Source: Microcaldota archaeon
Lineage (GTDB): Archaea; Micrarchaeota; Micrarchaeia; Micrarchaeales; CABMGC01
Length of the DNA stretch: 53,280 nucleotides
Assembly: GCA_021848065.1 (NCBI GenBank)
Contig: JAJZNA010000006.1
Location: 25,616-78,895 of the forward strand
Direction of reading: 5' to 3'
In this document: piece after piece, positions 26,896-28,832 of the stretch
Numbering within the stretch: position 1 is the stretch's first letter
Layout: each line of letters opens with the position of its first letter
Made by a program: the position numbers and the translations under genes
The notes under the pieces: model-generated
The model's input: the letters and a program-made list of their open reading frames with translations, nothing else
What the model was told of the DNA's origin: nothing
Databases searched by the model: none

Positions 26896-27612
26896 CTAAG
26901 CGCGCGAGCCTGCTATTATGCCAAGAATGTCATCGCTGCGCTCAAGGCTTTCTACAAGATAATCTGGAGAATACCCCATGAGCTCCTCGCTGCTGAATGT
27001 GCCTGTTGGCAGGATTATTGTGGTAAACCCTGAAGCCTTCCCCATGCTTATATCATTTGGGGTGTCCCCAAAATAGAATATATTGTGGCTTGGGATTGTT
27101 GACTTGAACAGCGACTCCGCTTCCTTTACAGCCGCAGTGGCCAGGTCCAGCCTTTTTTCAGACATATCGCCGAAGCCTCCGAACTCGAAGTACCCCATCA
27201 AGCCAACTTTCTCAAGCTTGAGCTTGGCTGTCTCTTTGACGTTCCCGGTGATGAGCCCCATGTGATATCCTTTGGACTTTAGGCTCTCCAGGATCTCTGC
27301 CGCGCCTTTGGTGGCATGTATGTCTGCAATTTTTATCTTTTCTTTCAGGCTCTCTGTGTATGCTGCGATGAGTTCTGGCATGTGCCCCATCACCTCGGTG
27401 CGGCTTAGGCCGTAACTTTCAAGTAGCGCCAGCAATATTGCCGTGTCCGTTCTTCCAGCGTACTCTTTTTTGTTGATTCTAGTTATATCCGAATCGATGT
27501 TGAACACTTTCTTAGCTGCCGAATCGAAGCATTCTGCCAGGGACGTCCCATCAGAGCATTTGATCCCGGGTTTCACTAAAGTCCCATCTATATCGAATAG
27601 TATAACTTTCAT
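26896..27612 (-). CDS. HAD-superfamily hydrolase (phosphoglycolate phosphatase-like)
   Basis: VILFDIDGTLV; GLITGNVKETAKLKLEKVGLMGYF; FGDTPNDISMG. Confidence 0.9.
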   Translation of the reverse strand: MKVILFDIDGTLVKPGIKCSDGTSLAECFDSAAKKVFNIDSDITRINKKEYAGRTDTAILLALLESYGLSRTEVMGHMPELIAAYTESLKEKIKIADIHATKGAAEILESLKSKGYHMGLITGNVKETAKLKLEKVGLMGYFEFGGFGDMSEKRLDLATAAVKEAESLFKSTIPSHNIFYFGDTPNDISMGKASGFTTIILPTGTFSSEELMGYSPDYLVESLERSDDILGIIAGSRA

Positions 27613-27678
27613 AAATAGCAACTAGCGCGTGGGTAATGCTTGCCATTTATATACTATATACTTGATAATTAAGCTTAT

Positions 27679-27806
27679 GCCAAGGTGGCGGAATCCGGTA
27701 ACGCGTACGCCTGGAAAAACATTCCTGCAAGCGTATGGCCTCACGGCCATTAGGGTTCAAATAAATTCCTGTGACATCAGGAATTTTGAAAATCCCTACC
27801 TTGGCG
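27679..27806 (+). tRNA. tRNA-Ser (GGA) with two apparent introns (anticodon loop about 13 nt; T-loop about 31 nt)
   Basis: GCCAAGG/CCTTGGC acceptor, G discriminator, D-stem GCG/CGC, anticodon stem TACGC/GCGTA, variable arm TGGCC-TCAC-GGCCA, T-stem TAGGG/CCCTA; 128 nt gene gives an 84-nt mature tRNA after removing 13+31 nt. Confidence 0.82.
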
Positions 27807-27968: not shown

Positions 27969-28832
27969 ATGATAAAGGCAGTAATTCTTGATGTTGACGG
28001 TGTAATTGTTGGGGAAAAAATAGGATATAATTCGCCATATCCCCATTCAAATGTACTTCGAGCACTGAAAACAGTTAGAGGAAAGGGAATACCTATTGCT
28101 CTTTGCACTGCAAAGCCACATTATGCTATTCAGGAGATAATAAAAAGAGCAGATTTACACAATCCGCACATTGCTGACGCTGGAGCAGTAATTATCGATC
28201 CGATTGATAATATATTTGTAGAAGAACATATAATTGAAGAAACCCTCGCAAAGAAAGTTTTAGAGACATGTATGCAGAATAAGATATACGTCGAATTCTA
28301 TACCGTTGATGACTACTTTATCCAACGGAGTGAAATATCAGCTATAACAAAGAAACATGCACATATTCTACAACGGAAACCAAAAGAACTTACGGACGCT
28401 GTTAAAGAGAGCACTAAGTATTCTATTACAAAGATTATGCCCATTTCGCTTAATGAGGATGACAAAAAAAGAGTGTCGAAGGTTTTAACACAATTTGATA
28501 ATGAACTTTCTATTAGTTGGGGAGTTCACCCTGTTGCATTACCATTACAGTTTGGCATTGTTACAGCAAAGGGAAGTTCCAAAAAGGAAGGGGCAGAAAC
28601 GATAGCAAGAAGCTTGAAGGTACCGATGGAGGATGTACTTGGAATAGGAGATAGTACGAGCGATTGGAAGTTTATTTCACATTGTGGTTATGGGGCGACA
28701 GTATCAAATGGAAGTAAAGACCTGAAAGACCGTCTAAAATCAAAGGATATAGGAAAATACCATATAAGCGACAAATCTGTCGATCAAAATGGTATTCTAG
28801 AAATACTGAAATATTTCTCTTTAATATCTTAA
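27969..28832 (+). CDS. HAD-superfamily (Cof-like) hydrolase in AT-rich context
   Basis: KAVILDVDGVIVGE; LGIGDSTSDWKFISHCGYGATVSNGSKDLK. Confidence 0.85.
   Translation: MIKAVILDVDGVIVGEKIGYNSPYPHSNVLRALKTVRGKGIPIALCTAKPHYAIQEIIKRADLHNPHIADAGAVIIDPIDNIFVEEHIIEETLAKKVLETCMQNKIYVEFYTVDDYFIQRSEISAITKKHAHILQRKPKELTDAVKESTKYSITKIMPISLNEDDKKRVSKVLTQFDNELSISWGVHPVALPLQFGIVTAKGSSKKEGAETIARSLKVPMEDVLGIGDSTSDWKFISHCGYGATVSNGSKDLKDRLKSKDIGKYHISDKSVDQNGILEILKYFSLIS

Follow-up and report, generated by a model that had tools for sequence, protein, structure and literature searches.

A tRNA-Ser(GGA) gene of Micrarchaeota with two small predicted introns, one of them in the T-loop

Results

The forward-strand segment 27679-27806 of the window (the whole 53,280-nucleotide stretch of DNA analysed here) reads, from its sequence, as a real serine tRNA gene of Micrarchaeota that is interrupted by two small introns. 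We are highly confident that it is a functional, single-copy tRNA-Ser(GGA) gene whose introns would be cut by the splicing endonuclease at positions 59/60 and 37/38, with RtcB joining the exons. This explanation is built on the observed sequence, its fold, the empty sites of orthologues, the conservation of register and the presence of the enzymes. The first-pass annotation had given the same sequence and coordinates and had called a class II tRNA-Ser(GGA) with the archaeal Ser discriminator G and 84 nt after splicing, all of which proved correct. Its proposal of two introns in one tRNA-Ser(GGA) is also the best reading now that empty sites have been seen in relatives and an endonuclease and a ligase are found to be encoded. 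The features are as follows.

27645..27653, + strand: predicted TATA-like promoter element, TTTATATAC, lying some 30 nt before the 5′ end of the mature tRNA; from sequence
27679..27806, + strand: class II pre-tRNA-Ser(GGA) gene, a cloverleaf once 44 nt are removed; 51 copies read; discriminator G at 27806
27679..27716, + strand: exon 1, with the acceptor 5′ strand, D-arm, anticodon stem 5′ strand and positions 32-37, including the anticodon GGA; conserved in all parsed orthologues
27717..27729, + strand: anticodon-loop intron, 13 nt, at the canonical position 37/38; relaxed bulge-helix-loop; present in 49/49 parsed copies
27730..27761, + strand: exon 2, with A38, anticodon stem 3′ strand, variable arm, T-stem 5′ strand and T-loop positions 54-59 (TTCAAA); from sequence and orthologues
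27762..27792, + strand: T-loop intron, 31 nt, at position 59/60; canonical hBHBh′; from empty-site orthologues, the register test, fold z of -4.4 and hairpin covariation
27793..27806, + strand: exon 3, with T60, T-stem 3′ strand CCCTA, acceptor 3′ strand CCTTGGC and discriminator G; CCA not encoded

Removal of the introns restores a standard tRNA. Read by sequence, all cloverleaf stems pair in the 84-nt form, which has the acceptor GCCAAGG/CCTTGGC, discriminator G, anticodon GGA, a variable arm TGGCC-TCAC-GGCCA and the T-loop TTCAAAT; the unconstrained minimum-energy fold of the 84-mer differs from the full cloverleaf. Against dinucleotide shuffles, the fold of the unspliced 128 nt, at -52.3 kcal/mol, has a z of -5.6 and that of the insert-bearing T-arm, at -17.5 kcal/mol, a z of -4.4, with 0/200 shuffles as good in either case. 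In 35/50 copies, a crude AT-motif scan picked up an A/T-rich box, located roughly between -28 and -40. The tRNA gene lies between two divergently transcribed ORFs, 26896-27621 (-) and 27969-28832 (+), by eye HAD-type phosphatase-like.

When the locus was compared by BLAST with 61 genomes from the genus, family and order, 58 gave matches, some of them only to a short D-arm region common to other tRNAs. We read 51 copies, comprising 50 full loci (including the window's own) and the copy in the complete genome of Ca. Micrarchaeum sp. A_DKE, whose T-loop intron measures 16 nt. Of these copies, 49 could be parsed by a script that required pairing of both the acceptor and the T-stem, and the other two (L069 and L081) were read by eye. 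In the genomes read, the orthologous gene has retained these exons and this discriminator. The T-loop is interrupted by 13-43 nt in 40/51 copies, while 11/51 have no insert, their TTCAAAT running straight into the T-stem; three of the intronless copies (G004, G005 and G010) belong to the same genus as the window genome. The T-loop of the intronless orthologues is identical to the predicted spliced T-loop, and these relatives, as natural empty sites, show the insert to be an addition to an otherwise standard gene. The T-stem is TAGGG/CCCTA in most intronless copies and TTGGG or CTGGG in all intron-bearing copies except the window's own, a difference that could reflect phylogeny or a structural link.

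At the exon-intron borders of the T-loop intron, two 3-nt bulges flank a 4-bp helix, which is the canonical bulge-helix-bulge (BHB) arrangement. In the window copy the T-stem TAGGG/CCCTA serves as helix h, AAT forms both the 3′ and the 5′ bulge, TTCA pairs with TGAA in the central helix between them, and the hairpin within the intron has 9 bp. The first-pass annotation had described this perfect hairpin, AAATTCCTG-TGACAT-CAGGAATTT, which is indeed present in the insert. Cutting after the second base of each bulge (AA|T, AA|T) removes 27762-27792. The insert had previously been placed at 27763-27793; its presence and length of 31 nt stand, whereas its boundary was set one base late and is corrected here to 27762-27792 (59/60). 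The mature sequence is identical under either boundary. Among intron-bearing copies, TTCAAA is followed by T in 19, A in 18 and C in 3, whereas the 3′ T-stem strand is directly preceded by T in 40/40. Since the former position varies and the latter is always T, T60 is assigned to the 3′ exon. We rejected the boundary that keeps the T at 27762 in the exon, since relatives differ at that base and the bulge geometry also speaks against it.

All four pairs of the central helix, TTCA/TGRA, are formed at the predicted register in 38/40 copies, compared with 0/40 at each of the other slides tested, from -3 to +3. Counted from the bulge that it abuts, the intron hairpin measures 3.3 bp on average, against 0.65 bp in shuffles. 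In four aligned 31-nt introns, 5/9 hairpin pairs have changed on both sides, and some hairpin pairs have been lost in individual orthologues. The covariation score of the whole T-arm structure is 0.333, versus 0.168 when shuffled, and every slid version scores lower. Within the central helix, the 40 intron-bearing copies contain wobble variants but no two-sided covariation, because its exon bases never vary.

The 13-nt insert at 27717-27729, after position 37, and the GGAA/TTCC pairing over the anticodon were both confirmed as first annotated. An intron of 10-17 nt follows position 37 in every parsed copy (49/49). Its helix is formed by C32-G, U33xU, G34-C, G35-C, A36-U and A37-U, with a 3′ bulge of CA|A and the 5′ site in a loop. 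The pairs are kept at position 32 in 48/49, at position 34 in 48/49 and at position 35 in 47/49 parsed copies, and U33 is mismatched in 41/49. Because U33 faces a mismatch in most copies, the 37/38 site is not a strict BHB, in which positions 32-35 would form a 4-bp helix accompanied by two 3-nt bulges, and the window copy is without the second bulge and inner helix. Epsilon2 enzymes have been reported to cut relaxed motifs (PMC6379350; PMC4033280).

The host genome belongs to Micrarchaeota and comprises 1.2 Mb in 35 contigs, being about 93% complete. A second, uninterrupted tRNA-Ser(GGA), which the first-pass annotation had named as the case against its reading, was looked for with the 84-nt spliced sequence and was not found in this ~93%-complete genome, where the search returned only this locus and short T-arm matches. 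The tRNA inventory of the genome was compiled by model, BLAST and pattern searches, and some genes may be missing from it.

A splicing endonuclease gene was found in the genome with PF01974. Its product matches the EndA of Candidatus Micrarchaeum acidiphilum ARMAN-2 (PDB 4fz2) over its full length (own residues 6-385; E 1.3e-151; 219/379 identical, 58%). The closest named relatives are MAGs of Candidatus Micrarchaeota, with protein identity of up to 70%. In the RNA-bound structure of the ARMAN-2 enzyme, Y160/K161 belong to the ASL, K228, S252, R275 and W384 contact RNA, and Y236/H251/K282 form the triad (PMC12397907). All nine mapped residues (Y160, K161, K228, Y236, H251, S252, R275, K282 and W384) are kept in the host enzyme, which is of the epsilon2 type, with three units in a single chain and both the ASL pair and the triad retained. 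By analogy with its ARMAN-2 relative, we infer that it has broad specificity. The genome also encodes an RtcB ligase (E 5e-166; rtcB at G000:C28:14073-15377).

T-loop insertions had been described as uncommon, which does not hold for this family. A family-wide pattern search recovered the T-loop motif in 47/59 genomes, against a handful of matches with the reversed pattern; a few of the T-loop pattern matches are due to chance and lie in protein genes, such as the endonuclease gene of the window genome. In 40 fetched matches and the window genome's own Ser(CGA), the hosts of the T-loop intron were tRNA-Arg(UCU), Arg(CCU), Ala(GGC), Pro(AGG), Ser(GGA) and Ser(CGA), the Arg and Ala genes being those of relatives. 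Three further tRNAs of the window genome have T-loop inserts, namely Ser-CGA (G000:C30), Pro-AGG (G000:C21) and Leu-CAA (L040).

The tRNA-Ser(CGA) gene (L179; G000:C30:30512-30556 plus about 80 nt upstream on the same strand) has, besides its T-loop intron, a 13-nt insert in the 5′ part of its anticodon loop, near 31/32 or 32/33 rather than at 37/38; the relatives L191, L197, L215 and L220 have this insert too. The tRNA-Leu(CAA) gene (G000:C28:15627-15725), located about 250 bp from rtcB on the opposite strand, has a 14-nt T-loop insert with a non-standard 5-nt 3′ bulge. The tRNA-Pro with a T-loop intron (L225; G000:C21:79259 onward) has the anticodon AGG and is the only CCU/CCC-reading proline tRNA that model, BLAST and pattern searches found in the ~93% complete genome. 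Its A34 is kept in at least six relatives (L185, L190, L199, L203, L216 and L222). A34 is unusual in archaea. The sole deaminase-family match in the genome looks, from its motif as read by eye, to be of the cytidine-deaminase type rather than TadA.

Introns of different tRNA hosts share 7-mers in 50 pairs, compared with a shuffled mean of 16 and maximum of 27; because the introns were hand-picked and the shuffle keeps only base composition, we take this sharing as suggestive only. Introns may have transposed between tRNA hosts, although the sharing is weak and confined to short words.

ARAGORN and the Rfam tRNA model both left the gene undetected in the window, where the sole Rfam match was a tRNA-Val. 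ARAGORN had been proposed as a check by the first-pass annotation; when run, it missed the unspliced gene. With introns allowed, it detected 0/41 T-loop-interrupted genes unspliced, versus 39/41 after in silico removal of the T-loop intron, and the two genes still missed lie at contig ends. This set consists of 40 fetched pattern matches and the window genome's own Ser(CGA). Some ARAGORN isotype labels were wrong for Ser genes with an anticodon intron, and the isotypes of Ser genes were therefore assigned by reading the sequence. One ARAGORN call, a tRNA-Pyl(CTA) with an 11-nt intron (L033; G000:C23:4975-5062), reads by eye as a tRNA-Arg(UCU) with a 13-nt intron at 37/38, the Pyl call being an artefact of misplaced intron borders. 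T-loop-interrupted tRNA genes thus escape ARAGORN, which exposes an annotation gap: such genomes can seem to lack essential tRNAs.

Discussion

From these observations we infer transcription, cleavage and ligation in the following order of events. The precursor is probably transcribed from the TATA-like promoter, and because this lies upstream, the T-loop intron would not block transcription. The epsilon2-type endonuclease would cut the T-arm between 59 and 60, at the canonical bulge-helix-bulge, and the anticodon loop between 37 and 38, at the relaxed bulge-helix-loop. RtcB would then join the exons, producing the 84-nt class II tRNA with the T-loop TTCAAAT.

The failure of ARAGORN and the Rfam tRNA model to detect the gene, and the incompleteness of the genome, would be compatible with a decayed tRNA pseudogene with insertions, UCC/UCU being read by another tRNA-Ser. 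All stems pair, however, the orthologues keep the same exons and discriminator, and the ~93%-complete genome yielded no other tRNA with the anticodon GGA, which makes decay very improbable. We give just as little credence to the notion that only the anticodon intron is removed and that the tRNA works with the T-loop insert retained and its T-loop enlarged. Unusual T-arms are tolerated in some tRNAs, and the insert does fold as a neat hairpin. Its sequence varies, however, and its length ranges from 13 to 43 nt, while the flanking TTCAAA, the register of TGRA and the last T stay constant, which is what constraint on splice sites would predict, and the insert-free orthologues have exactly the loop predicted from splicing. 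Both of these readings were rejected on the orthologue evidence.

The chance that the T-loop insert is removed by another route, for example as a mobile self-splicing element, appears slimmer still. Inserts come and go between close relatives, as such a route might entail, but Rfam matched only the tRNA-Val in the window, the BHB geometry fits the endonuclease, and to our knowledge 13-43 nt is too short for known self-splicing introns. Excision of both introns by the splicing endonuclease is therefore the explanation that we prefer.

Introns of this kind are already known, as the 59/60 position, multi-intron tRNAs and the epsilon2 endonuclease have all been published. Archaeal tRNA introns at 59/60 and multi-intron tRNAs have been described in Crenarchaeota/Thermoproteales and Nanoarchaeum (PMC4090602; PMC4033280), and the first-pass annotation had likewise mentioned multi-intron tRNAs in Thermoproteales and some small-genome archaea. 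Those systems share with the present one the same 59/60 position, BHB or relaxed motifs, two introns in a single tRNA and a broad-specificity endonuclease, but their enzyme is (alpha-beta)2, whereas the Micrarchaeota lineage studied here has an epsilon2 endonuclease. ARMAN-1 and ARMAN-2 have intron-rich tRNAs and an epsilon2 endonuclease (PMC12397907; PMC6379350; PMC4033280). They resemble our case in lineage, in endonuclease type with the ASL Y160/K161, in canonical and relaxed BHB substrates and in multi-intron tRNAs; the difference is that the T-loop site is here traced across the family as a recurrent present-or-absent site.

Our analysis adds that, throughout the family, introns are present or absent at a single T-loop site, a pattern seen in no fewer than six types of tRNA. 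We tentatively propose that the 59/60 T-loop site may be a Micrarchaeota-wide intron hot spot, where small BHB introns are gained and lost and may also pass from one tRNA to another (Ser-GGA, Ser-CGA, Arg-UCU, Arg-CCU, Ala-GGC, Pro and Leu), in parallel to but independently of the Thermoproteales case. The position is fixed, and nature provides dozens of pairs with and without the intron there, which makes the site a good system for studying the gain and loss of tRNA introns.
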